DNA of 64,000 nt from Sphingomonas sp. LC-1 (lineage in GTDB: Bacteria > Pseudomonadota > Alphaproteobacteria > Sphingomonadales > Sphingomonadaceae), in contig NZ_JANZXB010000002.1 of NCBI RefSeq assembly GCF_025371035.1, forward strand, positions 310,001 to 374,000, written 5' to 3'. The notes below the pieces were generated by a model. That model had not been told where the DNA came from, searched no databases, and saw only the letters and a program-made list of their open reading frames with translations. This document shows, piece by piece, positions 41,716-60,965 of the stretch (within the stretch, counting starts at the first letter, position 1; each line of letters begins with the position of its first letter). The translations under genes and the position numbers were made by a program.

Positions 41716-43149
41716 TCAGGCGATTCGGGTGGAAGCGGCGGCGTCGGCGGGCATGCCCGTCGCGCTTTCGCGGAATGGGTCGGCATCGGGCGCGGGGGGC
41801 CGTGCCGGAATGGTGGCGGCTGGGGTGGGCTGGCGCTGATCCCGCGCCGACTGGCCCAGATCGGAACCGCTGAAGGCGCCGGCATTCACCGCCATGCTGC
41901 CCAGCCGCAACCCCTTGTCCTCGGCCAGCCGGGCCAGCGTCGCATGCGCGTCGGCCAGCATCGTGGCGGTATGGGACTGCTCGGCGGTGAAGTGGATATG
42001 CGTCCGGTCGTCGTCGCGCCTGATGGCGACGGCGATCCCGCCAAGCGCGTCGGGGGAAAGCTGAATCCGGGTGTCGGCGGTCGCGGCATCCTCGCGCATC
42101 CGGTCGATCCGGTCGATCATCGCCTGCGGCCAATGCTGCTGCGTCATGTCGAGCGGCGACTGGTCGGCGGTGGCCGACGTCGCCACCACCGGCCGCGCCC
42201 CGTCGGTGCCGGCCAGCGCGATCGGATCGACCTGCCCCGTCACGCCGGGGGCGAGGGGTTCGGTCGCGTCGTCGCGATCCTCGGGCGCGGTCGATAGGCC
42301 GCGCAGCGCGCCCGCGAGCAGGCCGATCGTCGCCGCGCCCTGCGCCGGTTGCGTCACGCTCAGCGGACCGCTGGGCAGGGCAGGAGCGGCGGGAGTTGTG
42401 ACGATCGGCTCGACCCGGGGCTCGGCGAAGACGAGTCGAAAGCCCGCTCCGCCGGCGGCTTGCGGTGTCGGGGGCGTTGTCCCCGCGGCCGGAATAGTGG
42501 CGCGGGTCAAGGCGTCGAGCATCGCGGTATCGATCGGCTTAACCAGCGTCGCGTTCGAAGCCGCGCGCACGACGCGGCTATCCGGTGCGGGGCTGCCGGC
42601 CGGTTGCGGTGCGGCGGCCGTATCGGAACCGGATGGCGGGGGCAGGACGATCGCGCTCGATGCGGATGCGGCGAGCGTCGGCAAGGCAATGGCCTCCTGG
42701 CCTTGCGCTTTGCCATCCTGCGGAACCGGAGCCGTCGTGATGCCGTCTGGTGAGCGTGCAACCGGGGTCGTCGCCTTCGCAACGATGGCCGGACTGGCGA
42801 CGGTGCTTTCGATGGTCGGCGCGGCTATCGTCGGATTGACGGGCGTCGGCGCAGGCTGGATCGGCGGTGCCATGAGTTCCGCAAAGGCCGGCAAGGCGAT
42901 CGGCATGCCGGTCGGCAAGACATTGCCGGAGTCCGCTGCCGCCTTGTCGCCGATGTCCGGTGCGGCATCCTCGTCATTGGGCGCGAGCGAGACCGGGCCC
43001 GTGTCGGCGGACGGCAATCCTATCGCCAGGAGATCGGAGAATTTGCCGGGATTTCCGGCGCCTTCCGACGCGGCACCGTGCGGCTTGGCGGACAGGTTGC
43101 GGCGGGGATGCGGGGTATCTACTGATAGGGATGAAGCGATGGCTGACAT
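41716..43149 (-). CDS. fliK: Flagellar hook-length control protein FliK
   Basis: Molecular ruler for hook length. From ATG 43149 the protein has 477 residues. It is mostly an Ala/Pro/Thr-rich, low-complexity middle, with a C-terminal Flg_hook domain (RIQLSPDALGGIAVAIRRDDDRTHIHFTAEQSHTATMLADAHATLARLAEDKGLRLGSMAVN) carrying the L-P--LG--V pattern that contacts FlhB. The longer open frame upstream is a shadow of fliJ. Position after fliJ supports the call. Confidence 0.88.
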   Translation of the reverse strand: MSAIASSLSVDTPHPRRNLSAKPHGAASEGAGNPGKFSDLLAIGLPSADTGPVSLAPNDEDAAPDIGDKAAADSGNVLPTGMPIALPAFAELMAPPIQPAPTPVNPTIAAPTIESTVASPAIVAKATTPVARSPDGITTAPVPQDGKAQGQEAIALPTLAASASSAIVLPPPSGSDTAAAPQPAGSPAPDSRVVRAASNATLVKPIDTAMLDALTRATIPAAGTTPPTPQAAGGAGFRLVFAEPRVEPIVTTPAAPALPSGPLSVTQPAQGAATIGLLAGALRGLSTAPEDRDDATEPLAPGVTGQVDPIALAGTDGARPVVATSATADQSPLDMTQQHWPQAMIDRIDRMREDAATADTRIQLSPDALGGIAVAIRRDDDRTHIHFTAEQSHTATMLADAHATLARLAEDKGLRLGSMAVNAGAFSGSDLGQSARDQRQPTPAATIPARPPAPDADPFRESATGMPADAAASTRIA

Positions 43150-43162
43150 GGCGTGATACCCG

Positions 43163-43603
43163 TCAGCAAGGATCGTGCCGGTTTTGCGAGCGGCGCGGCG
43201 ATGCGGCGGGCATATCCTCCAGCGCGCGCATTTCGGCGCGGATCGCGGCGGCGCGAGCGCGTTCCAGCAGCTTTTCGACCGCGGTCTGGTCGCGCTTGGC
43301 CTCGCGAGTCTGCTCGGCGGCGCGGCTCGCCTGATGCTCGGCGGCGGCGACACGGCTGGCGGCGGCGTCCGATGACTCGTTCAGGCGGTGGCGGAAATGT
43401 GCCCGCGCCATCAGCGCCGCCGCCGATGTCGGCGGGGTGGGCGTCGGAGCCACTGCCTCGACCAGTTGCGCGATGCGATCGGATAGCTGCCGCTCGGTCG
43501 TCACGCGCTGCTGCGCCCGCGATTCCTCGGCCATGGTCAGGTTGAGTTGTAGCGTGCGCACCCGGTGGAGCCGGTTCAGCATCGCTTGTTGCCGATTGGG
43601 CAT
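43163..43603 (-). CDS. fliJ: Flagellar export protein FliJ
   Basis: Coiled-coil stalk protein that couples FliI ATPase to the FlhA gate. 146 residues, almost entirely predicted helix with heptad character (LHRVRTLQLNLTMAEESRAQQRVTTERQLSDRIAQL ... AEQTREAKRDQTAVEKLLERARAAA). Sequence conservation is low in FliJ; length, coiled-coil form and position between fliI and fliK decide the call. Confidence 0.82.
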   Translation of the reverse strand: MPNRQQAMLNRLHRVRTLQLNLTMAEESRAQQRVTTERQLSDRIAQLVEAVAPTPTPPTSAAALMARAHFRHRLNESSDAAASRVAAAEHQASRAAEQTREAKRDQTAVEKLLERARAAAIRAEMRALEDMPAASPRRSQNRHDPC

Positions 43604-48644: not shown

Positions 48645-49022
48645 TTACACCGGCATGCTCATGATGTCCTTATAGGCGGACAGGAGTTTGTTGCGGACCT
48701 GCAGCGTCGCTTCGAACCCGACCGATGCCTGCTGGCGGGCCATCATCACCTTAGCGATGTCGACCGTTTCGCCGCGTTCATAGCTTTCGGACAGGCGGGC
48801 GGCCTGTTGCTGGCCTTCGTTCACGCCCTTCAGCGCGGTTTCCAGCGTGTCGGCGAAGCTGTTCGCCGGGGCCGCCGGAGCTTGAGTCTGGGCGGCCTGT
48901 GCCGCCTGGTTGGCACCGGCCTGGCTTGCCGCCTTGAGCGCTTGATTGCGTTCCAGGATCTGGGCGCGAAGCGCCATCACCCGGTCGACGCTCATCGCGC
49001 CGCCGACACCGCCGACGCTCAT
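48645..49022 (-). CDS. fliE: Flagellar hook-basal body protein FliE
   Basis: Rod adaptor joining MS ring and rod. 125 residues from ATG 49022, which overlaps the activator stop (ATGA). ATG 48995 ([14 protein letters not shown]) is an alternative. The C-terminal region is FliE-like: [70 protein letters not shown]. It is the first structural gene of the fli operon. Confidence 0.94.
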
Positions 49023-50302
49023 GCCATCACGGCCCGGCTAGACGGGCGGATGATCTCTTCACCCTGCTCGCGCGCCTTGGCCAGGCGATAGCGCAGCGTG
49101 CGCTCCGAAATGCCCAGGCGCTTGGCGGTTTCCAAACGATTGCCGCCACAGGCCGCCAGCATCTCGCGGATCGCGGCGAATTCGCTCATCTGTACGACCT
49201 TACCCAGCGTCGCTTCCGCGGTCGTCACGGTCAGCGGCGTGTCATCGGTGTCGTTTGCGACCATCGGGCGGTCGAACACGATATGATCGGGTTCGATGGT
49301 CGCGCCACCCGCAAAGAGCAGGGCGCGCTGGATCACATTTTCCAGCTCGCGGACATTGCCGGGCCAGTTGTGCATCGACAGCTTTTCGATCGTGGCCATG
49401 CTGGGCCACGGCATCACGGTGCGACCGGCGGCGTGGCGCAGGATCATCGTCGCGGCCAGCGCGGGAATGTCCATGCGACGCTCGGCCAGCGGCTTGGTGG
49501 TCAGCGGGAAGACCGACAGGCGATAGTAAAGGTCGGCGCGGAACCGGCCTGCCGCCACTTCGGCCTGGAGATCGCGATTGGCGCAGGCGATGACGCGGAC
49601 ATCGACCGATTGCGGCATCGACGCGCCGAGCGGGATCACCTCGCGCTCCTGGAGCACGCGGAGCAGCTTGGCCTGGAGCTGGAGCGGCATCTCGGCGATC
49701 TCGTCGAGCAGCAGGGTGCCGCCGTCCGCCGCGCGGAAGAAACCTTCGCCAGCCTGGGCCGCACCGGTGAACGCGCCCTTCTGATGGCCGAACAGCAAGG
49801 CCTCCAGCATCGATTCGGGCAGCGCGGCGCAGTTGATCGCGACGAACGGCTTGGTGGCGCGGGTGGACTGCGCATGGATGGCGCGGGCCAGCACTTCCTT
49901 GCCGGTGCCGGTCGGACCGTTGATCAGGACGGTGATGTCCGACTGCGCGACACGCTCGGCCAGGGTGAACAGCGCCAGGCTCTCGGGATCGGCGGCGGTC
50001 GGCATTTCCGGCCCGGCGACCAGCGCCCGGACGAAGCTGTTGCCGACACCGGCCTCGCTGGCGGGATAGATGACGGTCGTCGGGCGGCCATCGGCCATCG
50101 GGATGATGGCGGGCTCTGCCCCGTCGCCGACGATCACGGTGCGTGTCGGGTGCGTGACCGCGTCTTCCGGCGTCACCAGGAACATGTCCCCGGCCTGCGG
50201 TGCGGCACCCGGTTCGGCAATCGCCAGACCCTGGGCACGAAGCGCCGAGATCAGCGCATATTTCTGCTTAACCAGGGCAGGAGAGGGAAGAATCGACGGC
50301 AT
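49019..50302 (-). CDS. Sigma-54-dependent flagellar activator (FlbD/FleQ-like)
   Basis: Bacterial enhancer-binding protein of the flagellar cascade. 427 residues from ATG 50302 with AAAGGAC upstream. The N-terminal about 105 residues lack a recognisable phospho-receiver. The AAA+ domain has Walker A GPTGTGKE at 129-136, the sigma-54-contact loop GAFTGA at 176-181 (preceded by LLFGHQK, where ELFGHEK is usual) and Walker [14 protein letters not shown] Fis-type helix-turn-helix is at the C-terminus ([25 protein letters not shown]). It overlaps fliE by four bases, so the regulator is translationally linked to the operon. Confidence 0.92.
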
Positions 50303-50363
50303 CGGCTGACAAGTCCTTTCGTGACTCGTCAATGCGGCCTCTTTGGTAAAACCGCGGTTAATT

Positions 50364-50496
50364 CGGCAACGGCACCGGCAACTTTTTTCCGGGCGCAGGC
50401 GGGCGCGGGCGCCCGCGCCCGCGCCGCCACGGGCCCGCGCGCCCGCCCGCTCGCGAAACGGCAAAACCGGCAAAACTTTAGGGCAGATATTTGCCG
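50364..50496. promoter_or_regulatory. CGGCAA hexamer array between the activator gene and flagellin 1
   Basis: CGGCAA at 50364-50369, 50376-50381, 50459-50464 and 50468-50473, and its inverse TTGCCG at 50491-50496. The block also contains a 53-bp tract (50398-50450) with only one A/T base and a perfect palindrome GGGCGCGGGCGCCCGCGCCC at 50401-50420. Interpretation: candidate binding sites of the sigma-54 activator, as at 57891 and 60433. GGGCAGATATTTGC at 50481-50494 has GG-N10-GC spacing but a poor -24 box, so a sigma-54 promoter here is only possible. Confidence 0.5.
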
Positions 50497-50505
50497 GTCG
50501 GCGGC

Positions 50506-50532
50506 TAAAACCTGCCGGAATGCGGCCGTTCT
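50506..50532 (+). promoter_or_regulatory. Sigma-28 (FliA) promoter of flagellin 1
   Basis: TAAA (50506-50509), 15-bp spacer, GCCGTTCT (50525-50532), ending about 67 bp before the flagellin start. It matches the four-member TAAA-N15-GCCGTT set in this window. Confidence 0.82.
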
Positions 50533-50599: not shown

Positions 50600-51451
50600 A
50601 TGACTGTTATTGCGACGAACGTGAATGCGATGCGTGCCAGCTCCGCCGGTGCCCTGGCCCAGAATGCGCTGAGCACCTCGATGCAGCGCCTGTCGAGCGG
50701 CAAGCGTATCAACTCGGCAGCCGACGACTCGGCGGGCCTCGCGATTTCCTCGTCGATGACGGCCCAGATCCGCGGCATGGCGCAGGGTGTCCGCAACGCC
50801 AATGACGGCATCTCGATGGCCCAGACGGCCGAAGGCGCGATGGACGAAGTCAACAACATGCTGCAGCGGATGCGCGAACTGAAGGTCCAGTCGACCAACG
50901 GCACCTATTCGACCTCCGACACCGACAACATCAAAAACGAGCAGCTGGCGCTAGCCAATCAGATCAACAGCGTGCTGGGCAACACCAAGTTCAACAACAA
51001 GGGCCTGTTTGACGCCGACGCTGGGGCGACCGGTTTCAAAATCCAGACCGGTGCGGGTGCCAACGATACGGTCACAATGAAGTCGACCGATTTCACCGGT
51101 GGCACGAACGGCAACGCCGCGATGAAGGCGGTTACCGGTGGTGCCGGTGGCACCGCGCCAACGGCCACCTCGGTCGGGGATGTGACGCTCGACCAGTATG
51201 ACTCGGCGATCAGCGCAGTGGCGACGGCCCGCGCCAGCCTGGGTGCGACGCAGAACCAGCTTCAGTCGGCGGTCAACAACACGACCTCGACCATGACCAA
51301 CCTGTCGGAAGCCAAGAGCCGCATCGAGGACACGGACTTCTCGGCCGAAACCACCGCGCTCGCCAAGGCGCAGATCCTGAGCCAGGCGTCGACCGCGATG
51401 CTGAGCCAGGCCAACCAGTCGCAGCAGGGCGTGCTCAAGCTGCTCGGCTAA
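50600..51451 (+). CDS. fliC: Flagellin (first paralogue)
   Basis: Filament subunit. 283 residues from ATG 50600 with GGAGG 7-11 bp upstream. N-terminal D0/D1: [22 protein letters not shown], then [38 protein letters not shown]-terminal D0/D1: [44 protein letters not shown]. It is a short flagellin with a small variable middle (about 120-190) and no large D2/D3 domains. The second paralogue lies 200 bp downstream. A sigma-28 promoter precedes it and two hairpins follow. Confidence 0.96.
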
Positions 51452-51561: not shown

Positions 51562-51588
51562 TAAAGTGCGGCGAAAGGCGGCCGTTTT
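51562..51588 (+). promoter_or_regulatory. Sigma-28 (FliA) promoter of flagellin 2
   Basis: TAAA (51562-51565), 15-bp spacer, GCCGTTTT (51581-51588), ending about 63 bp before the start. Both flagellin promoters are preceded by a T6CC stretch. Confidence 0.82.
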
Positions 51589-51651: not shown

Positions 51652-52488
51652 ATGACGGTGATCGCCACCAATATCTCGGCCTTACGCGCCGCCAATGCGT
51701 CGATAGCAGCCCAGACCGGGCTGGATGTTTCGATGAACCGCCTTTCGACGGGCAAGCGGATCAATTCCGCCATGGACGACGCGGCCGGGCTGGCCATCAC
51801 CTCCTCGATGACCGCACAGGTCCGGGGCATGAATCAGGGCGTTCGCAACGCCAATGACGGCATCTCGATGGCGCAGACGGCCGAAGGCGCGCTCCAGGAA
51901 GTCAGCAACATGCTGCAGCGGATGCGCGAACTGGCGGTGCAGAAGGCCAACGCGACCTATTCGTCGCAGGACAAGACCAGCATCACCGTCGAGCAAGACG
52001 CCCTGTCCGCGCAGATTTCGACCATCCTGACCAACACCACGTTCAACGGCCAGAAGCTGTTCGACGGCACCGCGGGCAATTCCGGGGAGGTGCAGATCCA
52101 GGCGGGCGCCTATTCCACGGACGCCTTGACCATGACGTTCGGCAATCTGAAGACCGACTCGACCCTGACCACGATCATCGATTTCACCAACCAGAAGCTG
52201 CAATCGACGACGCCGCCCACACTCGAGGATTTCGATACGGCGATCGCCAAAGTGGCGAATTTCCGGTCGGGCCTGGGCGCGGTGCAGAACCGTCTTCAGT
52301 CGGCAATCAACAATCTGACGTCGAACGCCACCAATCTTTCGGCCGCGCGCAGCCGCATCGAGGATACCGATTTCTCGGCGGAAACGACCGCGCTCGCCAA
52401 GGCGCAGATCCTCAGCCAGGCGTCGACCGCCATGCTGAGCCAGGCCAACCAGTCGCAGCAAGGCGTGCTCAAGCTGCTCGGACAGTAA
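51652..52488 (+). CDS. fliC: Flagellin (second paralogue)
   Basis: 278 residues from ATG 51652 with GGAGAA upstream. The N- and C-terminal about 90 residues are close to the first flagellin ([47 protein letters not shown]...LLGQ). The central region (about 115-195, [13 protein letters not shown]-like then ...[10 protein letters not shown]) differs. It has its own sigma-28 promoter. This is consistent with two-flagellin filaments or differential expression. Confidence 0.96.
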
Positions 52489-52632: not shown

Positions 52633-53862
52633 TCATTCGCCGCGCAGGACCAGGGCGGGCGACACACGCGCCGCCCGACGGGCCGGGTAGAGGCTGGCCA
52701 GCACAGCGCCCGCCAGCACGACGACCGCGATGATCGCCACCTCATGGGCGGCGATGCCGATCGGCAGGGACAGGAAAACGTCCAGATCCGCCTCCCGCGA
52801 CGGCGCGATCCACAGCGCCAGCGCGGTGATATGGGCGCGCTGGGTCAGGACGCCGCCGGCAAAGGCCAGCCCCGCCGACGCGCCGATCGTCGCGATCACC
52901 GTGCCCACCGTCGTGAAGATGCGCGCGATGCTCCGCGCCGACACGCCCATGCTGCGCAACACCGCGATCTCGCGCCGCTTCGATCGGGCGAGCAACGTCA
53001 TCGACGACAGGATGTTGAACAGCGCGACCAGCGTGACCAGGCCGACCGCGATGCTCATGCCGAGCTTCTCCATCGCCAGCGCGGACAGCAGGGCGCGATT
53101 GCTCTGGGTCCAGCTGGTGATGCGATAAGCGGGGCCCAGCCGTTCGCGAATTTCGCCCGCCACCCGCGCTTCGTCGGCGGGGCGGGCCAGGGCCACGGCG
53201 ACGCGGCGGGTCACCGCGGCCGATTCGCTCAGGACCGGCAATCCTTCGACCGGGCCGATCGCGACCGGCGGCTGACCCCCCGACGCCTCGTCGTCATGAT
53301 ATAGTCCGGCGACCCGTGCGTCGAAGAGCTGCAGCGCGACCGCCTTGTCCGGCGCGACCTCCACCCGCCCGATCGCGACCGGCATGCCGGGGAGCAGCCC
53401 CAGTTGCAGCGCCGCATTCTCACCCGCCACGATGCTGTCGGGGAAATCGGGACGGCGCCCCATCGCCAAGTGCGCCAGCACGGGATGGCGCGCGAGGCCA
53501 TCGGGATAGAGGCCCTGCAAGCGAATCGGGCTGACCCGCCCATCGATGCTGAGCGCGGCGGTCATCTCGCGCAGCGGTTCCGCGCGGGCGACGCCGGGCA
53601 GGCGGGCGATAATGGCGGCGACCCGCGCCTCGTCCATCCGTTGATGCGCGGCGGCGGTGATGCTGAGATGCCCGTCGATCGGTGCGACGCTGCTGGCCAG
53701 CTTGGCCTGTGCGCCGTTCATGACGGCGATGACCAACACCAGCGACGCAACGCCGATCGCGACGCCGATGCAACCGATCGCGCCCACCAGCAGGACCAGC
53801 CGCCCACCGGCGCCGGGCCAGAGATAGCGTGCGATCAGTCGACGTTCGTAGGTCGCGAACAT
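52633..53862 (-). CDS. LolC/LolE-family ABC permease (single gene, no lolD seen)
   Basis: 409 residues with the FtsX/LolC layout. N-terminal TM helix near 21-48 (RLVLLVGAIGCIGVAIGVASLVLVIAVM with MNGAQAKL after it), a large periplasmic domain (about 55-270) and three C-terminal TM helices. Motifs near IVVGLVTLVALFNILSSMTLLARSKRREIAVLRSMGVSARSIARIF match LolC/E. The family extracts lipoproteins from the inner membrane and needs the ATPase LolD, which is not in this window. It lies between the flagellin and fliA genes. Confidence 0.82.
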   Translation of the reverse strand: MFATYERRLIARYLWPGAGGRLVLLVGAIGCIGVAIGVASLVLVIAVMNGAQAKLASSVAPIDGHLSITAAAHQRMDEARVAAIIARLPGVARAEPLREMTAALSIDGRVSPIRLQGLYPDGLARHPVLAHLAMGRRPDFPDSIVAGENAALQLGLLPGMPVAIGRVEVAPDKAVALQLFDARVAGLYHDDEASGGQPPVAIGPVEGLPVLSESAAVTRRVAVALARPADEARVAGEIRERLGPAYRITSWTQSNRALLSALAMEKLGMSIAVGLVTLVALFNILSSMTLLARSKRREIAVLRSMGVSARSIARIFTTVGTVIATIGASAGLAFAGGVLTQRAHITALALWIAPSREADLDVFLSLPIGIAAHEVAIIAVVVLAGAVLASLYPARRAARVSPALVLRGE

Positions 53863-53963: not shown

Positions 53964-54773
53964 TCACGCCTGTTCGGCGAGCGCCTTTTTCAGCTTGGCA
54001 TGCGCAGCGCTCTTGATCTGGCAGACGCGCGCGGCGCCGACGTTCAGCACCTGGCCGATTTCCTCGAGGTTGAGTTCCTCGACATAATAAAGCTGGATCA
54101 CCATCGCCTCGCGCTCGGGCAGGGCGGAGATGGCGGCGATCAACGCCTCGCGAAGGTCGCTTTCGGCCAGTTGCTCAAAGGCATCGGGGGTGTCGTCGGC
54201 GAACCAGGGCAGATCGTCCGAATAGACATCGTCGATCGCCTCCATCCGCACCGCTTCGGCCGTCTTGTATTCGGTGCGGAGACGGTCGACCGGCACGCCC
54301 AGCTTCTGCGCCACCGCCTCGTCGGTTGGAGCCTGGCCGTTCGACTGGGCCAGCGCGGCGACCGCCTTGGCATAGTCGCGGCGGCGGCGCATCGCGCCGC
54401 GCGTCGTGGTGGCCTGGCGCCGCAGTTCGTCGATCATCGCGCCGCGCAGCCGCGCCCGCAGATAATGGACGAACTCGACGCCGCGCTCCTCGAACGAGGT
54501 GGTGGCCTCGACCAGCGCGACCAGCCCGACCTGAACCAGATCCTCGATCTCGACCAGGTTCGACATCGATCCGTGGACATGCCACGCGATGCGTCGGACC
54601 AGCGGCAGGTGCTGGCGGATCAGCGCGCTGGTGTCGCGGCCGGTCCCGCGCGCGGCGGGGCGATAGGTGAGGGGCTGGTCCGCCAGCGTCGGGTTGACGA
54701 GCGCGGGGTCGAAGCTGACCGGGTTGACCGGCTGGGCATTCATGAAAGCGCCGCTGAGAGGGTGCGAGGTCAT
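53964..54773 (-). CDS. fliA: RNA polymerase sigma-28 factor FliA
   Basis: Alternative sigma factor for late flagellar genes. 269 residues from ATG 54773, which overlaps the flhA stop (ATGA); ATG 54743 (MNAQPVNP) is an alternative. Region 2: LVEIEDLVQVGLVALVEATTSFEERGVEFVHYLRARLRGAMIDELRR. Region 3: APTDEAVAQKLGVPVDRLRTEY. Region 4: LPEREAMVIQLYYVEELNLEEIGQVLNVGAARVCQIKSAAHAKLKKAL. The TAAA-N15-GCCG promoters in the window are its expected targets. Confidence 0.95.
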   Translation of the reverse strand: MTSHPLSGAFMNAQPVNPVSFDPALVNPTLADQPLTYRPAARGTGRDTSALIRQHLPLVRRIAWHVHGSMSNLVEIEDLVQVGLVALVEATTSFEERGVEFVHYLRARLRGAMIDELRRQATTTRGAMRRRRDYAKAVAALAQSNGQAPTDEAVAQKLGVPVDRLRTEYKTAEAVRMEAIDDVYSDDLPWFADDTPDAFEQLAESDLREALIAAISALPEREAMVIQLYYVEELNLEEIGQVLNVGAARVCQIKSAAHAKLKKALAEQA

Positions 54774-56851
54774 GCAGCAATCGCCTGTTGCTGGGAGTGA
54801 TGGGGGGTGCCGATGACGGCGACGACTTCGACCGGCTTGTCTTCCGGTACTTCGAAGAAGGAGAGGACGGGCACGTCGGGCAGGCAGGTGCGGAGCAGCT
54901 TGCGCATGGCCAGACGCACGCCGGGCTGGACGACGAGGGCAAAGGGCTTGGCCTCGGCGATCAGCGGCTGGGCGGCCTGGGTCAGCGCGGTGGTGATGCG
55001 CTGGCCCAGATCGGGTTCGATGACATGGCGGCGCGACACGTCGGCGCGCATCGCCTGGCCCAGCAGCCCTTCGAGCTGTCCGTCCAGGGTCATGACGCGC
55101 AACGGCTCGCGAACGCCGCACAGCTTCTGGATGATCAGCGCGCCCAGGCTGGGACGGATCATCTCGATAATCTCTTCGGCATCGACCGTCCGCTGCGCGG
55201 CGACCGCGACCGCGCTGGCGATCCGGCGGAACTCCTTGAGGGAGATATTCTCCGCCAGCAGGCCCTTCAGCACCTGGGTCAGCGTGGTCAGCGGCAGCGG
55301 CGTCGGGCAGAGCGAGGCGGCCAGTTGCGCCGCGCGCTCCTTCAGCCCGTCGAGCAGCGCCTGCACCTCGTCGGGGCCGAGCAGTTCGGACGCGTTGGAG
55401 CCCAGGACATGGTTGAGATGCGTCGCCATCACCGTGCCCGGATCGACCACGAGATAACCCATGCCGGTGGCGGCATCGGCGTCGCCCTTCATGATCCAGG
55501 TGGCGGGCAGGCCGAAGGTCGGGTCCTTGACCGGCTTGCCGTTCAGCGTGCCGAACGCCTGGCCGGTGTCGAGCGCCAGCATCTCGTCGGGCGACACCTG
55601 GTCCTCGGCGGCGACCACGCCGTTGATGAGGATGCGATAGCTATAGGGTGCCAGGCTGATGTCGTCGCGGACCCGCGCCTGCGGCACGACGAAGCCCAGG
55701 TCCTTGGACAGCTGGCGCCGGACGCCGGTGATGCGCGCCATCAACGGGGCACCGCGACGCTCGTCGACCAGCGGGACCAGGCCGTAACCGATGTCGATAT
55801 GCACCTGCATCCCGTCGGTCACGTCTTCCCAGGCGATGCGCGACGGGTCGACCGGCTCGGCCACGGGGGCGGGCGCGGTGACGACCGGGCGCTTCTCGAT
55901 CTGGCGCAGCTTCCATGCGGTGAAGCCGGCGATGGCGGCGGCGGGCAGCAGGATGAGGTGCGGCATGCCGGGCAGCACGCCCAGCAGGCCCAGGATCACC
56001 GCGACCGGCAGCCATGTCTTGGACGCACCGAACTGCGAGCCGATCTGGCCGGCCAGATCCTTGTCGGACGAGACGCGCGTCACGATGGCGGCGGCGGCGA
56101 TCGACAGCATCAGCGAGGGCAGCTGCGCGACCAGCGCGTCGCCGATGGCGAGCAGGATATAGGTCTTGGCGGCGTCGCCGACGCCCATGCCATGGCTGAC
56201 CGGGCCCAGGATCAGGCCGCCGATCACATTGGCCGCCAGGATGAGCATCGCGGCGACCGCGTCGCCCTTCACGAACTTGGACGAACCGTCCATCGAGCCG
56301 TAGAAATCGGCCTCGGTCGACACTTCCAGACGGCGGGCCTTGGCCTGGTCCGGGGTGATGAGACCGGCGTTCAGGTCGGCGTCGATCGCCATCTGCTTGC
56401 CGGGCAGCGCGTCGAGGGTGAAGCGCGCCGACACTTCCGACACACGGCCCGCGCCCTTCGTCACGACGATCAGGTTGATGATCATCAGGATCGCGAAGAC
56501 GAAGAGACCGACGACATAGTCGCCGCCGATCAGGAAGGTGCCGAACGCCTCGATGACGTGACCCGCCGCGCTCTCGCCCTCATGGCCGTGCACCAGCACA
56601 ATGCGGGTCGAGGCGACGTTCAGGCCCAGACGGAACAGCGTCGCGAAGAGCAGGACGGTCGGAAAGGCCGAGAAGTCGAGCGGCTTTTCGGCGTTCAGCG
56701 CGACCATCAGCACGGCCAGGCTGATCGCGATGTTCGCCACGAAGAAGATGTCGAGCAACGCCGGCGGGATCGGCACGACCATCACGAGGACGAGCAACAG
56801 GATCGCGGCGGGCAGGGCCATGGTGCGGCCGCTGGAGAGGAACTTGCCCAT
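54770..56851 (-). CDS. flhA: Flagellar export gate protein FlhA
   Basis: Largest export-gate component. 693 residues. About eight N-terminal TM helices (first near 11-35) are followed by the FHIPEP region with PTVLLFATLFRLGLNVASTRIVL. KGDAVAAMLILAANVIGGLILG and the linker lead to a large cytoplasmic domain (VTDGMQVHIDIGYGLVPLVDERRGAPLMARITGVRRQLSKDLGFVVPQARVRDD). The C-terminus ends ...SQQQAIAA. It overlaps fliA by four bases and follows the transglycosylase with two bases between ATG and its stop. There is no flhF or flhG next to it. Confidence 0.96.
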   Translation of the reverse strand: MGKFLSSGRTMALPAAILLLVLVMVVPIPPALLDIFFVANIAISLAVLMVALNAEKPLDFSAFPTVLLFATLFRLGLNVASTRIVLVHGHEGESAAGHVIEAFGTFLIGGDYVVGLFVFAILMIINLIVVTKGAGRVSEVSARFTLDALPGKQMAIDADLNAGLITPDQAKARRLEVSTEADFYGSMDGSSKFVKGDAVAAMLILAANVIGGLILGPVSHGMGVGDAAKTYILLAIGDALVAQLPSLMLSIAAAAIVTRVSSDKDLAGQIGSQFGASKTWLPVAVILGLLGVLPGMPHLILLPAAAIAGFTAWKLRQIEKRPVVTAPAPVAEPVDPSRIAWEDVTDGMQVHIDIGYGLVPLVDERRGAPLMARITGVRRQLSKDLGFVVPQARVRDDISLAPYSYRILINGVVAAEDQVSPDEMLALDTGQAFGTLNGKPVKDPTFGLPATWIMKGDADAATGMGYLVVDPGTVMATHLNHVLGSNASELLGPDEVQALLDGLKERAAQLAASLCPTPLPLTTLTQVLKGLLAENISLKEFRRIASAVAVAAQRTVDAEEIIEMIRPSLGALIIQKLCGVREPLRVMTLDGQLEGLLGQAMRADVSRRHVIEPDLGQRITTALTQAAQPLIAEAKPFALVVQPGVRLAMRKLLRTCLPDVPVLSFFEVPEDKPVEVVAVIGTPHHSQQQAIAA

Positions 56852-56854
56852 CTA

Positions 56855-57712
56855 TCAGCCTCCCATGCTCGCCAGCATCATATATGCCAGGCGCGCATGA
56901 TCGGGTTTGGGGCGCAGTACGCTGTCGCCGGTGGTGGCGGCACCACGCATCCCGAGCTGGTTCATCGTGCTGTTCGCCCAGGCGATGGCATCGGCGGCGC
57001 TTTCATTGTTGCCGGTGACCACGGTCGCGTCGTCGCCCATTGCCTTCAGCGCGAGCGCCTGCGCCGCGAACTGGAGATTGGCGGCGCGCGTCTCGTCGCT
57101 GTCGGCGCTGGTCCCGGCCAGCTTGTTGGCGAAACGGTCGTAAATGTCGGAAAGCGAGCGGGGCTGACCGTTCGCGGCGTAGAAGACCGAGCGATTGGCG
57201 CGGGCAGCAGCGGGGAATAGCGCCGCGCCGCTGGCCTGCGGGTTCGCAGCCATCGTGCCCAGAAACTTGGTCGCGCCGCCCAGCCCCAGAAAATGCGCCA
57301 TGTACAGGTCGGTGCCGTTCGCCTCGCGGCCCAGCGTCGACTCCAGCGCGGCCTTGTTGTCCGAGGCATGTTCGGCCGCCATCAACGAGGCGGCGGTGGG
57401 ATCGTTGCGCAGCCCCATGATCGCCGTGCGTGCATTGCCCGACACATAATAGCGTCCGCCCGACTGGCCGATCGAATCCGCCGCCCAGCCCAGCCCATGT
57501 TCGGCGCCATGCTTCTTGAGCACGGCAAGCCAGCTCTGCTCGACGAACTGGTACAGGCCGGAGGCCGAGGAGGTGCCCGCACGCGCATTGGCGTTCAGCC
57601 CGGACTCCAGCTTGGCCTGACCCAGCAGATAGCCGAAATCGACCCCCGTGCGGCTGGACGCCAGCGCGATGGCCGATTGGATTCTGGCGTGGGAAACGGG
57701 TTGGACGGTCAT
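56855..57712 (-). CDS. Flagellar-cluster lytic transglycosylase/SLT-domain muramidase
   Basis: 285 residues with a lysozyme-like SLT fold: the catalytic Glu region LGQAKLESGLNANARAG, then SASGLYQFVEQSWLAVL, and further AADSIGQSGGRYYVSGN and YMAHFLGLGGATKFL. No signal peptide or lipobox is seen, so it may be exported by the flagellar system or act through another route. It sits directly upstream of flhA with a textbook sigma-54 promoter and would make a gap in peptidoglycan for the rod or hook. It could supply the muramidase activity that FlgJ carries in enterobacteria. Confidence 0.85.
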   Translation of the reverse strand: MTVQPVSHARIQSAIALASSRTGVDFGYLLGQAKLESGLNANARAGTSSASGLYQFVEQSWLAVLKKHGAEHGLGWAADSIGQSGGRYYVSGNARTAIMGLRNDPTAASLMAAEHASDNKAALESTLGREANGTDLYMAHFLGLGGATKFLGTMAANPQASGAALFPAAARANRSVFYAANGQPRSLSDIYDRFANKLAGTSADSDETRAANLQFAAQALALKAMGDDATVVTGNNESAADAIAWANSTMNQLGMRGAATTGDSVLRPKPDHARLAYMMLASMGG

Positions 57713-57747
57713 GCTATCTGGTTAAAGCCCTGGTTCGGGCCATAACT

Positions 57748-57764
57748 AGCAAGGGACGTGCCAA
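57748..57764 (-). promoter_or_regulatory. Sigma-54 promoter of the transglycosylase-flhA-fliA operon
   Basis: Read on the minus strand: TTGGCACGTCCCTTGCT, an exact match to TGGCACG-N4-TTGCW with -24 GG and -12 GC ten bases apart. The predicted start of transcription (near 57737) precedes the ATG at 57712. CGGCAA array sites lie about 127-195 bp upstream. Confidence 0.92.
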
Positions 57765-57815
57765 TCCCGATCGGCACTTGGCCGGCGCTGCTCGATACGG
57801 GGTTAGGGCATAGAA

Positions 57816-57837
57816 AAAGCCCGGAAAACCGGGCTTT
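57816..57837 (-). terminator. Terminator between flgN and the transglycosylase promoter
   Basis: AAAGCCCGG and CCGGGCTTT pair around AAAA (plus strand), with a T run on the minus side. It would end the flgM-flgN transcript before the downstream sigma-54 promoter. Confidence 0.8.
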
Positions 57838-57890
57838 GCGTCACATCATCGATGCCGTGGAAACATCAGGGGCGGTGGGCGGCGTCGCCA

Positions 57891-57943
57891 CGGCAAGCGG
57901 GGGGCCGGCAAAGCGGCAAGCGATTGCCGCCGGCAGACGGCAA
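57891..57943. promoter_or_regulatory. CGGCAA hexamer array upstream of the transglycosylase-flhA-fliA promoter
   Basis: CGGCAA at 57891-57896, 57906-57911, 57914-57919 and 57938-57943, and the inverse TTGCCG at 57924-57929: five sites in 53 bp. The array is separated from the sigma-54 promoter by the terminator and lies at enhancer-like distance. Interpretation: activator binding sites. The array ends one base before the flgN stop. Confidence 0.65.
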
Positions 57944-58255
57944 TCAGGCGAAGGCGCGCATCAGCGGGCGATAGCCCGCGCCGGACTCGCCGGTCAGGGT
58001 CTGCAACCGGCGACGGACATTGGCCGCCATCAGGTTCACATAGATGCGGCAGGTCTCGTTCAGGCGATTGGCTTCATCGGCCAGCTCGCGCAGTTCGGGG
58101 CCCGCCGGGCCGGTGCCCAGTGCGGCGACCTCTTCGATCGCAGCCAGTTTGTCGGACGTCGCGCGTTCCAGACCCGCGACGTCATTGACCTTCAGAGCCG
58201 CGATTTCACGATGAAGGGCCTCGATGACCCGAATCAGGGCGTCACGCCGCGTCAT
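57944..58255 (-). CDS. flgN: FlgN-like flagellar export chaperone
   Basis: 103 residues, helical. It has IRVIEALHREIAALKVNDVAGLERATSDKLAAIEEVAAL and a second helix block ELRELADEANRLNETCRIYVNLMAANVRRRLQTL, the two-helix form and spacing of FlgN, which chaperones FlgK/FlgL. Sequence similarity in this family is low, so the position next to flgM is the main support. It overlaps the flgM stop region by 14 bases. Function is inferred. Confidence 0.75.
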   Translation of the reverse strand: MTRRDALIRVIEALHREIAALKVNDVAGLERATSDKLAAIEEVAALGTGPAGPELRELADEANRLNETCRIYVNLMAANVRRRLQTLTGESGAGYRPLMRAFA

Positions 58256-58541
58256 TTTTGTTCCAGCTCAGCTTCAGGGCGATCATCTGGTCGGCGATGG
58301 TCGCCGGCAGGATCGGAAAGTGACCGTCCGCGATCGCCTTCTTGATCTGGGCGACGCGCTCTGAGTTGACCGGGGGCTGCGAGGCGAGTGAGGCGGACAG
58401 GCCGCTCAGCACGCTCGAATCGCCGGTGTCGAGCTTGGCCGGGACAGAGGCTGCCTCGGGTGTCGCCGACCCGCGGGTCGTCGCGATCCGCGCGACCCTC
58501 GTGTCTCCGGCATTCAGCCTTGAAGTTGTTATTTCCACCAT
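58242..58541 (-). CDS. flgM: Anti-sigma-28 factor FlgM
   Basis: Binds FliA until the hook is complete. 99 residues from ATG 58541; a longer product from ATG 58568 is possible. However, the sigma-28 promoter at 58574-58600 places the transcription start near 58567, so 58541 is the better start. The C-terminal sigma-binding helices are seen as PPVNSERVAQIKKAIADGHFPILPATIADQMIALK. The N-terminal half is poorly conserved. Autoregulated by its own FliA promoter, the classic late-gene feedback. Confidence 0.85.
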   Translation of the reverse strand: MVEITTSRLNAGDTRVARIATTRGSATPEAASVPAKLDTGDSSVLSGLSASLASQPPVNSERVAQIKKAIADGHFPILPATIADQMIALKLSWNKNDAA

Positions 58542-58573
58542 GCCCGCACCTATCGGTCCCGCTGACATTCATG

Positions 58574-58600
58574 GAAACGGCCGTTTGATGAAATTCTTTA
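58574..58600 (-). promoter_or_regulatory. Sigma-28 (FliA) promoter of flgM-flgN
   Basis: Read on the minus strand: TAAA (58597-58600), 15-bp spacer, GCCGTTTC (58574-58581). Same architecture as the flagellin and fliD promoters. Predicted transcription start is near 58567, which argues against the upstream ATG at 58568. Confidence 0.85.
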
Positions 58601-58634
58601 GAAAGAAATTCGGCCCAACCCCGTAGCAATGCGG

Positions 58635-59132
58635 TTATTCGGTCCAGCCAGGCAGGGTGGCACGACCGCTGGACAGGGCAACCGCCTGAATTGGTTGGCG
58701 GCTTGCGTCGATCCGCACGGGGAAATGCGCGCCCGGCACGGCGTCCGCCATGGCGATTCCGTCGCGGGTGATCGAAAATCCGTCCGATCCCGCCTCCACC
58801 GTCACCGGATCGCCGCGCCGGATGACCGGCTCCTGCCGCACCGCGACGGCGGGCGCGGCGGCGATGGCGGCCACCGCGCGCGGGGGTGCCAGCACCGGCA
58901 CGAAGATGCGCCATTGCGGAGTCGAACAGGCGACGACCACCGCGTCATGCGCCTCGGTCCGCCAGGATAGCGAGACGGTCGGGCATTGCGCGAGTTTCAA
59001 CCGCGAATCGATCGGGGATCGGGGCCCGCCCTCTACCCCGACCGGACGGCCGGTAAAGGCGGTGACCGCCGCGTCGAGCGCGGCGACATCCTGAAAACCG
59101 GCGGCACCGGCCAGCAACAGGGACAGGATCAT
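58635..59132 (-). CDS. flgA: Flagellar basal-body P-ring formation protein FlgA
   Basis: Periplasmic chaperone for FlgI P-ring assembly. 165 residues with a signal-like N-terminus (MILSLLLAGAAGFQD). The FlgA/SAF domain has VAVRQEPVIRRGDPVTVEAGSDGFSITRDGIAMADAVPGAHFPVRID and ends ...RATLPGW. The ATG overlaps the motB stop by four bases. Last gene of the motA-motB-flgA unit; flgM follows with its own promoter. Confidence 0.9.
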   Translation of the reverse strand: MILSLLLAGAAGFQDVAALDAAVTAFTGRPVGVEGGPRSPIDSRLKLAQCPTVSLSWRTEAHDAVVVACSTPQWRIFVPVLAPPRAVAAIAAAPAVAVRQEPVIRRGDPVTVEAGSDGFSITRDGIAMADAVPGAHFPVRIDASRQPIQAVALSSGRATLPGWTE

Positions 59133-59677
59133 CGGGACTTCCTTTGGGATTCACCGGAGAAGACGAGGGTGACCACCGCGCTTCGTCGGCCGGGGGCCGT
59201 GGCGGTGGACAGGGTGAGGCGGTTGGCGGCGGCCGGCCCGATCAGCGCGGCGGCGGCGCGCGCGCGATCGGCGGCGAGAACGACCGGGCTGTGCGTCATC
59301 GAATCGACATCGGCGGCGCTGCCATCGGTCGCCGCGACGATCGACAGTCGGACGCGCGGATCGGCCAGCGCCTCGCGCGCCCATTCGGCCAGGGCGGGAT
59401 CGGGATCGAGCGGCTGTGCCGATCCGGTCGCGAAGGTCAGCGCGGCGGCGGCGACCGGCATGACCGGCGACGGAGCCGGCATGGGAGCGACGGCTTTGGC
59501 GAGGGGAGCGCCGGTTCCGAATTCGGCGCGCAGCGAATCGAGCAGCGCGGGCCGCCGTTCCGACCCCATGGCCTGGACCAGCACCAGAAAGCCGACCAGC
59601 AACAAGGCCAGATCGGCCAGCGTGATCAGCCAGAGTGGTCGCGACGGCGCCGGGGTGGGAAAGTCGAACTCGGTCAT
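59129..59677 (-). CDS. motB: Short MotB-like flagellar stator protein
   Basis: 182 residues, against about 250-350 for most MotB. One N-terminal TM helix, LITLADLALLLVGFLVLVQAM, carries the Asp (residue 22) at the position of the proton-binding Asp in MotB. A short Ala/Pro linker is followed by a compact OmpA-like domain (ALTFATGSAQPL, VRLSIVAATDG, LAADRARAAAALIG). Start ATG 59677 overlaps the motA stop. The long open frame upstream is a shadow. Confidence 0.8.
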   Translation of the reverse strand: MTEFDFPTPAPSRPLWLITLADLALLLVGFLVLVQAMGSERRPALLDSLRAEFGTGAPLAKAVAPMPAPSPVMPVAAAALTFATGSAQPLDPDPALAEWAREALADPRVRLSIVAATDGSAADVDSMTHSPVVLAADRARAAAALIGPAAANRLTLSTATAPGRRSAVVTLVFSGESQRKSR

Positions 59678-60363
59678 GCGACGGTCGCCAGCGGACGACG
59701 CGGCGGCGTCGGCGCGCGGACCGCCACGACCGGCGCCTCGCGCGCGGCCAGCGCGGCGAGGGGCACCTCGATCCGCGCCCGCTCGAACGCCTCGATCCGG
59801 GCCGCACGGCGCAGGCGCGCGGCGATGGGCTGGGCCACCAGATTCGCGAACAGCGCGCCATAAAGGGTGGCGAGGAGGGCGATCGCCATCGCGCCGCCGA
59901 TCTGCTGCGGATCGTTCATCGTCGCGAACATCGCGGCCAAGCCGATCAGCGTGCCGACCATGCCCATGGCCGGGGCCGCTTCCGCCGCGCCCGCCCACAT
60001 CTCCGCCACCGCCAGATGCCGCTCTACCCGCGCCAGCCGCGCCTGTCGCGTGCGCGCCAGGACGGTGTCGGGCCGTTCGCCATCGACGATCGCACCGATC
60101 GATTCGGCCAGATCGGGATCGGTGATCACCGAGCGGTCGAGCGTCACCACGCCGTGGCGCTGCGCGATGCGGGAAAGATGGGTCAGCTGTTCCAGCAGCG
60201 GATCGGCCGAATAGGGCGCGCGGAACAGCACCCCCAATGCCCGCACGCCACGCCGCGCATCGCGCCATGGCGTGCGCAACAACGTCGCGAGCAACGTACC
60301 GCCCAGCACGATGGCCAGCGCGGCGGGGTCGAGGAACTGCGAGAGGGGTGGCAATCCGTTCAT
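59674..60363 (-). CDS. motA: MotA-like stator protein lacking the first transmembrane helix
   Basis: 229 residues from ATG 60363. The N-terminus (DPAALAIVLGGTLLATLLR) aligns with the second TM of PomA/MotA, so the first TM and about 30 residues are missing. The rest is intact: cytoplasmic domain (VDGERPDTVLARTRQARLARVERHLAVAEMW) and the TM3-TM4 pair with AEAAPAMGMVGTLIGLAAMF and GGAMAIALLATLYGALFANLVAQPIA. The sigma-54 promoter just upstream (predicted start near 60365) makes this start the earliest possible and the mRNA almost leaderless. Confidence 0.82.
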   Translation of the reverse strand: MNGLPPLSQFLDPAALAIVLGGTLLATLLRTPWRDARRGVRALGVLFRAPYSADPLLEQLTHLSRIAQRHGVVTLDRSVITDPDLAESIGAIVDGERPDTVLARTRQARLARVERHLAVAEMWAGAAEAAPAMGMVGTLIGLAAMFATMNDPQQIGGAMAIALLATLYGALFANLVAQPIAARLRRAARIEAFERARIEVPLAALAAREAPVVAVRAPTPPRRPLATVA

Positions 60364-60375
60364 GCGCTCATGCTG

Positions 60376-60392
60376 TGCAAGGGGCGGGCCAA
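60376..60392 (-). promoter_or_regulatory. Sigma-54 promoter of motA-motB-flgA
   Basis: Read on the minus strand: TTGGCCCGCCCCTTGCA, one mismatch to TGGCACG-N4-TTGCW, GG-N10-GC intact. Predicted transcription start is near 60365, two bases before the motA ATG. Confidence 0.85.
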
Positions 60393-60432
60393 TTTGCCCG
60401 GCATCGTCCCGACACGCGAAATTCTGCGGGAA

Positions 60433-60492
60433 TTGCCGGACGGCTTGCCGCCCTTTGCCGCCGCCCGGCAAGCGAGCGGCAAACCATTGCCG
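60433..60492. promoter_or_regulatory. Shared CGGCAA array between motA and flgB promoters
   Basis: TTGCCG at 60433, 60445, 60455 and 60487, and CGGCAA at 60466 and 60477: six sites in 60 bp. It lies 41 bp from the motA -24 side and 55 bp from the flgB -24 side, as a bidirectional enhancer would. Same hexamer as at 57891 and 50364. Confidence 0.7.
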
Positions 60493-60546
60493 GATGCCGC
60501 CTGCCGTTCGCTGCCGCCAGGGACGGTCTCCTTCGTAGCGGGCGAA

Positions 60547-60563
60547 TTGGCATGGAGGTTGCG
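60547..60563 (+). promoter_or_regulatory. Sigma-54 promoter of the flgBCDEF operon
   Basis: TTGGCATGGAGGTTGCG: GG at 60549-60550 and GC at 60561-60562, ten bases apart. One mismatch in the -24 box (T for C) and G after the GC. Predicted transcription start is near 60574; AAGGAGG lies at 60595-60601 before the flgB ATG. Confidence 0.88.
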
Positions 60564-60608: not shown

Positions 60609-60965
60609 ATGGCCAATGAAACACTGTTCGGCGTGCATGGAGCAGCGCTGGAGGTGCGGGCGCAGCGCATGGGCGTGCTGGCGTCCAACATCGCCAATGC
60701 CTCCACGCCCGGCTTCAAGGCACGCGACATCGATTTTAAGGCCGCGCTCGCCGCGGTCGAGGGAGAACAGGGGCAGGAGCAGGGCCGGGGCATCGGTGCC
60801 GCGATGAAGTATCGCGTGCCGATCCAGACCTCGCTCGACGGCAATACGGTGGAGCTGAACCAGGAACAGACCGCCTTTGCCGAAAATGCGGTCCAGTATC
60901 AGACGACCCTGTCGTTCCTGAACGGTCGCATCGCCACCATCACCCGTGCGCTGAAGGGCGAGTAA
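60609..60965 (+). CDS. flgB: Flagellar rod protein FlgB
   Basis: Proximal rod component. 118 residues from ATG 60609 with AAGGAGG upstream. Motifs LFGVHGAALEVRAQRMGVLASNIANASTPGFKARDIDFKAAL (the flagellar rod signature) and a C-terminal LNQEQTAFAENAVQYQTTLSFLNGRIATI. First gene of the flgBCDEF operon. Two bases before the stop/start gap to flgC. Confidence 0.96.
   Translation: MANETLFGVHGAALEVRAQRMGVLASNIANASTPGFKARDIDFKAALAAVEGEQGQEQGRGIGAAMKYRVPIQTSLDGNTVELNQEQTAFAENAVQYQTTLSFLNGRIATITRALKGE

Follow-up and report, generated by a model that had tools for sequence, protein, structure and literature searches.

A predicted sigma-54 tier with a FlbD/FlrC-like activator and phased palindromes in the flagellar gene cluster of Sphingomonas

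The flagellar gene cluster of Sphingomonas sp. LC-1 raises the question of which sigma factors and which activator drive its operons. The cluster was studied in a stretch of 64,000 nucleotides (contig NZ_JANZXB010000002.1, positions 310,001 to 374,000 of the forward strand), which as a whole is called the window below. A first-pass annotation of the window had proposed three sigma-54 promoters of matching architecture, located before slt-flhA-fliA, before a gene named motA and before flgB, and held that, together with a sigma-54 activator encoded at 49019-50302, they give a complete class II tier with fliA itself under sigma-54. We estimate a probability of roughly 90% that these promoters belong to the middle, sigma-54-dependent tier of a flagellar cascade, in which a FlbD/FlrC-like activator works through phased palindromes and FliA acts below; Sphingomonas appears to share the tier with further genera of the same family.

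All three proposed sites were found on the strands assigned to them, and each retains the GG-N10-GC spacing (Table 1); the ranges originally given were one base too long because a preceding T had been counted in. The motif on its own is weak evidence, and conservation decides. GG-N10-GC alone is uninformative, with 734 + 712 matches in the window, and a search for TGGCRYG-N4-TTGCW with up to two mismatches revealed 47 matches in the window versus 42 expected, i.e., the chance level. The stricter pattern TGGC-NN-G-N4-TTGC matches four times in the window and 88 times genome-wide, versus 61 matches for the reversed control. What raises the three sites above chance is their location before operons and their conservation.

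Conservation was followed in 120 related genomes, which were searched for FlhA; 65 of them, all from the window's genus, have the same FlhA type (at least 61% identity). The locus was retrieved from the 64 of these other than the window's, 20 genes were placed by tblastn, and the best site between -250 and +30 of each start was scored over 12 positions, with GG and GC mandatory. Loci in which a gene is absent, cut by a contig end or has no placeable start are left out of the 65-locus counts. With the window included, sites scoring at least 10 were found before slt in 64 of 64 loci (at least 11 in every one), before the motA-like gene in 60 of 62 (the exceptions are L017 and L079), and before flgB in 61 of 61. 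Out of 17 control genes, 12 had no such site and five had one or two (fliG 2/43, flgA 2/63, flhA 1/57, motB-like 1/61, flgD 1/61). Since the spacer bases and flanks differ among loci, this conservation is not a mere lack of divergence. In every one of the 64 slt-bearing loci, slt, flhA and fliA come in succession without a change of strand and no more than 200 base pairs (bp) apart, and each of these runs has a site before slt, which supports the placement of fliA under sigma-54.

The set from outside the genus comprised 31 loci, 11 from the 80 FlhA-matched loci and 20 from 153 matching family genomes; 61 of the 80 (L099-L159), nearly all from other proteobacteria, were left out. Among loci with placeable starts, sites scoring at least 11 precede slt in 19/21, flgA in 23/29 and flgB in 27/29, versus 0/29 for flgC and 0/12 for fliA. 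In these genera the site lies directly ahead of flgA, while the two are separated in Sphingomonas by the motA-like and motB-like genes. The barely higher genome count of the motif relative to its reversed control, and the chance-level number of two-mismatch matches, are what would be expected if the sites were chance matches, in a GC-rich genome, of a motif that is itself short and rich in GC. This explanation is extremely improbable, since the same location is retained in 60 to 64 loci despite differing spacers and flanks, and since most loci outside the genus have the sites as well. Based on GG and GC ten bases apart within a TGGCAC-N5-TTGC context, and on a selection-conserved location ahead of operons, we conclude that the three sites are very probably sigma-54 promoters.

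The protein encoded at 49019-50302 has the features of a sigma-54 enhancer-binding (AAA+) protein. It contains PF00158 with an intact GAFTGA loop, as had been proposed, followed by an AAA+ lid and HTH_8, while residues 1-100 have no Pfam assignment and no Pfam receiver family was detected at E <= 0.001. The loop reads KGAFTGA in the window and in one of eight aligned relatives, and KGSFTGA in the remaining seven. The best NCBIfam model is FlbD (NF050807, an equivalog), at 317 bits and below the cut-off of 750, and the closest solved chains are those of the AAA+ domain of 'Flagellar regulatory protein C'. At E <= 1e-90 the activator co-occurs with this FlhA type, being found in 64 of the 65 genomes that have it and in 0 of the 55 that lack it. 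The single exception, G024, contains only other activators, 41-46% at best. Loss of the gene in this genome was not accepted: fliF is located at C7:33624-35261 and the contig ends at 35454, 193 bases past fliF, where the sister genome G027 has the activator gene. In the window's genome a single rpoN match was found 9.2 kb beyond the window (L014 9193-10677 = C12:383193-384677, C12 being the contig of the window). RpoN is present in 120 of 120 genomes and is therefore not discriminating.

A candidate binding site for the activator was identified in the interval between the motA-like gene and flgB. The hexamer CGGCAA occurs 322 times in 61 such regions versus ca. 8 expected from base shuffles, and none of the 61 lacks it. 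The palindrome CGGCAA-N(3-6)-TTGCCG is present in 59 of the 61, with a spacer of four in 60 of 91 copies. The window contains three palindromes (0.09 expected), one before slt, one between the motA-like gene and flgB, and one inside fliK, and the genome eight, versus two for the reversed control. A wider regulon was considered and not adopted: a pattern that combines a half-site with a sigma-54 site matched six times (control, two), one match being flgB itself.

The distances from the palindrome centre to the C of the flgB -12 element cluster near 65, 76, 86, 97, 108, 119 and 130 bp. In a scan of periods from 8 to 14, the best period was 10.8, with R 0.916 for the 86 of 91 palindromes at distances of 50-140 bp. 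When only the nearest palindrome per genome (40-140 bp) was used, R was 0.935 (n=56), and 0.929 for 48 sequence clusters; the same nearest-palindrome test measured to the flgB ATG gave an R of only 0.47. In 18 loci from outside the genus, R to the flgB -12 was 0.857 at 10.8 (0.904 at the set's own best period, 10.4), versus 0.228 when measured to the ATG. Thus, before the motA-like gene and flgB, the palindromes are both prevalent and helically phased relative to predicted promoters, as candidate enhancers. The activator is the presumed ligand of the palindromes, which might instead be bound by another protein, such as a repressor or a nucleoid protein, which would also be the source of the phasing. 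We consider this quite unlikely: the phasing follows the sigma-54 -12 element and is much weaker or absent relative to the start codon, which is expected of an enhancer-binding protein, and the helix-turn-helix stretch RTLRYRLA is invariant across nine aligned activators.

The name motA does not fit the gene before which the second promoter lies. Its product (229 amino acids) is a shortened MotA/PomA-like paralogue that matches the PomA profile NF006527 only from position 27, at 129 bits versus a cut-off of 341. A MotA above the NCBIfam cut-off is encoded outside the window, at a distance of 5.5 kb (L014 5528-6391), in a neighbourhood (L014 5528-7285) that also holds a MotB-like protein, at 234 of 277 bits. 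In Sphingomonas the shortened MotA-like/MotB-like pair (59129-60363, minus strand) stands between the sigma-54 site and flgA.

Transcription from sigma-54 promoters typically starts about 12 nucleotides (nt) past the C of the -12 GC. Transcript leaders were predicted with +1 set at 12 nt and the first in-frame start codon taken from -4 on; start codons upstream of the promoter were thereby ignored, and most loci have an open frame there. In each of the 60 loci that have a site, the start codon of the motA-like gene falls between predicted +2 and +5 (59 ATG, one GTG), which leaves no leader for a Shine-Dalgarno sequence. The message is therefore probably leaderless or nearly so. A similar position, +2 to +6, was observed for the start of slt in 10 of 64 genes. 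Leaderless mRNAs are known in alphaproteobacteria, and one of them is named in PMC4287350.

Boxes of two further kinds suggest what may lie above and below the sigma-54 tier. Upstream of the activator-fliE operon is a CtrA-like box, for which, relative to TTAA-N7-TTAA, the best match in 48 loci was 7/8 in 30, 6/8 in 17 and 5/8 in one. The 7/8 level is reached in 0.8% of shuffles, and in 44 of the 48 loci the best box is located 52-64 bp upstream of the activator start. Adjoining the box, in the interval that separates the activator gene from the first flagellin gene, there are five CGGCAA half-sites (50364-50496), which could be autoregulatory sites of the activator. On the lower side, TAAA-N15-GCCG, a sigma-28-like pattern that was picked after the boxes of the window had been seen, was found before flaA in 11/49 loci, flaB in 9/49 and flgM in 8/22 (versus no more than 0.2% of shuffles for any of the three), and out of seven other genes only before flgB, in 1/61. 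The full sigma-28 consensus was matched at 10/12 or better before flaA in 7/49, flaB in 6/49 and flgM in 3/22. The flaA and flaB counts are not two tests, since they represent one gene in 42 loci. Both FliA and FlgM score above their NCBIfam cut-offs.

Several observations weigh against the cascade as we read it. Only 14 of 64 loci have a palindrome within -600 to +900 of slt, which rejects palindromes as a rule for every promoter and makes activation of the fliA operon by the encoded activator less secure. CGGCAA is enriched upstream of slt (97 occurrences versus ca. 12 expected), and 15 of the 64 regions have none. Towards motA the phasing is less strong, with R 0.75 for the 58 of 74 palindromes at distances of 30-160 bp. 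The phase test counts related species as independent, and the use of 48 clusters removes kinship only in part. Exact sigma-28-like boxes are present in a minority of loci. Finally, the genome contains five other strong sigma-54 activator (PF00158) genes, the products of any of which could act. These genes, and the sparse palindromes near slt, would be accounted for if the promoters were sigma-54-dependent but some of them, notably that of slt-flhA-fliA, were activated by another enhancer-binding protein. This is unlikely in our estimate, because the encoded activator tracks this flagellum, its gene lies within the flagellar cluster, and the half-site enrichment extends to the region ahead of slt.

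A fourth candidate site, before fliK, had been overlooked in the first-pass annotation. Of the 63 relatives in which the activator was matched, 20 were sampled; the site scored at least 10 in 19 of them, and none was found in L195. Because the site overlaps coding sequence, its conservation could instead reflect constraint on the conserved FliJ C-terminus (RHDPC), with no promoter present. Such an explanation would account for the overlap with FliJ codons, the off-consensus first base of the site, its absence from L195 and the variable spacing between site and ATG. The associated palindrome points the same way: it lies downstream, inside fliK, in the window and in just 10 of the 20 relatives, about 210-350 bp from the site, with an R of 0.61 at 10.8 (n=11 only). 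The proline codon CCT at the site, however, is retained in at least 17 of the 20 relatives although CCT makes up 3.2% of proline codons in flhA, fliF, flbD and flgC, and we regard coding constraint without a promoter as the less probable account by a good distance. A fliK promoter is accordingly predicted, less surely than the other three. A conserved leaderless fliK start was considered and rejected, since the first ATG in any frame falls anywhere from +1 to +40, and three of the 19 relatives with a site have no ATG within the examined stretch.

The fourth site bears on the proposal of a complete class II tier, which is overstated: the fliK site was missed, and in none of 48 Sphingomonas loci is the activator-fliE operon preceded by a sigma-54 site, a CtrA-like box being present instead. 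Outside the genus, a site scoring at least 11 was assigned to the activator gene in 6 of the 15 loci holding one. The idea of a matching architecture fits only in part, since the motA-like message is predicted to be leaderless and the palindromes are regular only in the motA-flgB interval.

Taken as a cascade, the elements could work as follows. CtrA would probably switch on the activator gene. RNA polymerase with RpoN would wait at no fewer than four promoters, those of slt-flhA-fliA, of the motA-like, motB-like and flgA genes, of flgBCDE and the genes that follow and, less surely, of fliK. The activator would bind upstream, to CGGCAA-N4-TTGCCG at ca. 65-120 bp and on the side of the helix that suits the promoter, and its GAFTGA loop would open the polymerase; a single array of palindromes would serve both divergent promoters, motA-like and flgB. 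FliA made from the sigma-54 tier would then transcribe flgM and the flagellin genes from the TAAA-N15-GCCG boxes, and FlgM would restrain FliA. We give about even odds to the fullest form of this scheme, a hybrid cascade of sphingomonads that runs from CtrA to a receiver-less FlbD-like activator with sigma-54, then to fliA and a sigma-28 tier, with one-face enhancers at ca. 65-120 bp that evolve by whole turns, a downstream fliK enhancer in coding sequence, and a genus-wide leaderless sigma-54 message of the motA-like gene.

Table 1. Positions of predicted promoters, binding sites and genes in the window.
Feature	Coordinates	Strand	Remarks
Sigma-54 promoter of slt-flhA-fliA	57748..57763	-	TGGCACGTCCCTTGCT, 12/12 consensus; predicted +1 57737
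Sigma-54 promoter of motA-like-motB-like-flgA	60376..60391	-	TGGCCCGCCCCTTGCA, 11/12; predicted +1 60365, 2 nt upstream of ATG 60363
Sigma-54 promoter of flgBCDE...	60548..60563	+	TGGCATGGAGGTTGCG, 10/12 in the window; predicted +1 60574
Fourth candidate sigma-54 site	43165..43180	-	CGGCACGATCCTTGCT, 11/12; overlaps fliJ end, upstream of fliK (ATG 43149); predicted +1 43154
Candidate activator palindrome between motA-like and flgB	60477..60492		CGGCAAACCATTGCCG
Extra CGGCAA half-sites, motA-like-flgB interval	60433, 60445, 60455, 60466		
Candidate activator palindrome before slt	57914..57929		CGGCAAGCGATTGCCG; centre ca. 172 bp upstream of slt -12
Candidate activator palindrome inside fliK	42913..42928		ca. 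245 bp downstream of the fourth site's -12
CtrA-like box	50347..50361	-	TTAACCGCGGTTTTA, 7/8; upstream of activator-fliE operon
Sigma-28-like box of flgM	58574..58600	-	TAAA-N15-GCCG; 9/12 of consensus
Sigma-28-like box, first flagellin gene (50600-51451)	50506..50532	+	9/12
Sigma-28-like box, second flagellin gene (51652-52488)	51562..51588	+	9/12
FlbD/FlrC-like sigma-54 activator	49019..50302	-	KGAFTGA, Fis-type helix-turn-helix, no Pfam receiver domain
fliA (sigma-28)	53964..54743	-	NF005413 206 bits, cut-off 201
flhA	54770..56851	-	name from first-pass annotation; relatives found by sequence
slt	56855..57712	-	first annotated as 'transglycosylase'; no family match
flgN-like	57944..58255	-	PF05130 below cut-off
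flgM (anti-sigma-28)	58242..58541	-	TIGR03824 47.6 bits, cut-off 40.75
flgA	58635..59132	-	PF13144 above cut-off
MotB-like short protein	59129..59677	-	our naming; no family match
MotA/PomA-like protein	59674..60363	-	PF01618 above cut-off; first part of profile lacking
flgB	60609..60965	+	name from first-pass annotation; open reading frame

Other features of the region were recorded. The slt reading frame has no Pfam or NCBIfam match, so that 'transglycosylase' is a name carried over from its first description. An inverted repeat with CCC-type and GGG-type arms and a short loop (57726-57741, minus strand) straddles the predicted slt +1. In 53 leader-bearing loci its mean stem score is 9.45 versus 7.2 for base shuffles, and 87% versus 36% reach 8; in loci with leaderless slt there is no space for the repeat. 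A hairpin in the slt leader RNA was rejected, since its 5' arm does not extend past the predicted +1, so that it would be mostly untranscribed. A putative terminator (57817-57838) in the flgN-slt interval, read by eye, was not reported by the terminator scan. A LolCE/FtsX-like permease gene (52633-53862, minus strand; 194 bits versus a LolCE cut-off of 362) separates the second flagellin gene from fliA and was matched in only four of 65 loci, the window and L016-L018, some loci falling short of this region. Another FlhA type, with about 37-40% identity, is present in 22 of 73 genomes of the genus and probably belongs to a second flagellar system.

A sigma-54 tier is of a known kind; this one stands out as a variant through its phased enhancers, its combination of CtrA, a FlbD-like activator and FliA, and a message that is probably leaderless. 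The scheme sets out how the flagellum of a large family could be wired. The phasing across dozens of species amounts to a natural experiment on close enhancers acting on sigma-54, and the motA-like gene is a conserved example of a probably leaderless sigma-54 transcript. Searches of the open-access literature, as far as its text was available, revealed no account of these promoters, activator sites or phasing; in the accessible portions, work on sphingomonads describes gene content or CtrA effects rather than these promoters. For Sphingomonas, two independently acquired flagellin clusters have been described, with sigma factors unmentioned in the available part of that report (PMC13015449). 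The cluster of Sphingopyxis granuli TFA resembles that of the window in having a putative sigma-54 activator, fliA, flgM and two flagellins; it consists of 39 contiguous genes in at least four operons and is anaerobically repressed, and CtrA was suggested by the authors, while promoters, activator sites, phasing and a leaderless transcript are not described in the sections available (PMC6472365).

The predicted cascade shares features with two well-known hierarchies. As in the FlrA/FlrC-sigma-54-FliA hierarchy of Vibrio cholerae, where fliA is an RpoN-dependent early gene (PMC3930126), fliA appears to depend on sigma-54, and the closest structures to the activator are those of Flagellar regulatory protein C. 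Unlike in V. cholerae, the Sphingomonas activator has no Pfam receiver domain, and its gene is preceded by a CtrA-like box and no sigma-54 site. As in the FlbD hierarchy of Caulobacter crescentus, which has CtrA at the top, sigma-54 and FlbD in the middle and ftr sites at several promoters (PMC3930126), a CtrA-like box and sigma-54 sites are present, and FlbD is the nearest NCBIfam model of the activator. FlbD is controlled by FliX and not by phosphorylation (PMC3096577); the protein encoded in the window differs from it in having no Pfam receiver domain and in reaching 317 bits versus 750. In Caulobacter, CtrA, FlbD and RpoN work without FliA, and the flagellins are RpoN-dependent (PMC3930126), whereas the window has fliA, flgM and sigma-28-like boxes before its flagellin genes. 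The proposed scheme would thus join the CtrA and FlbD-like control of Caulobacter with the FliA/FlgM control of Vibrio.

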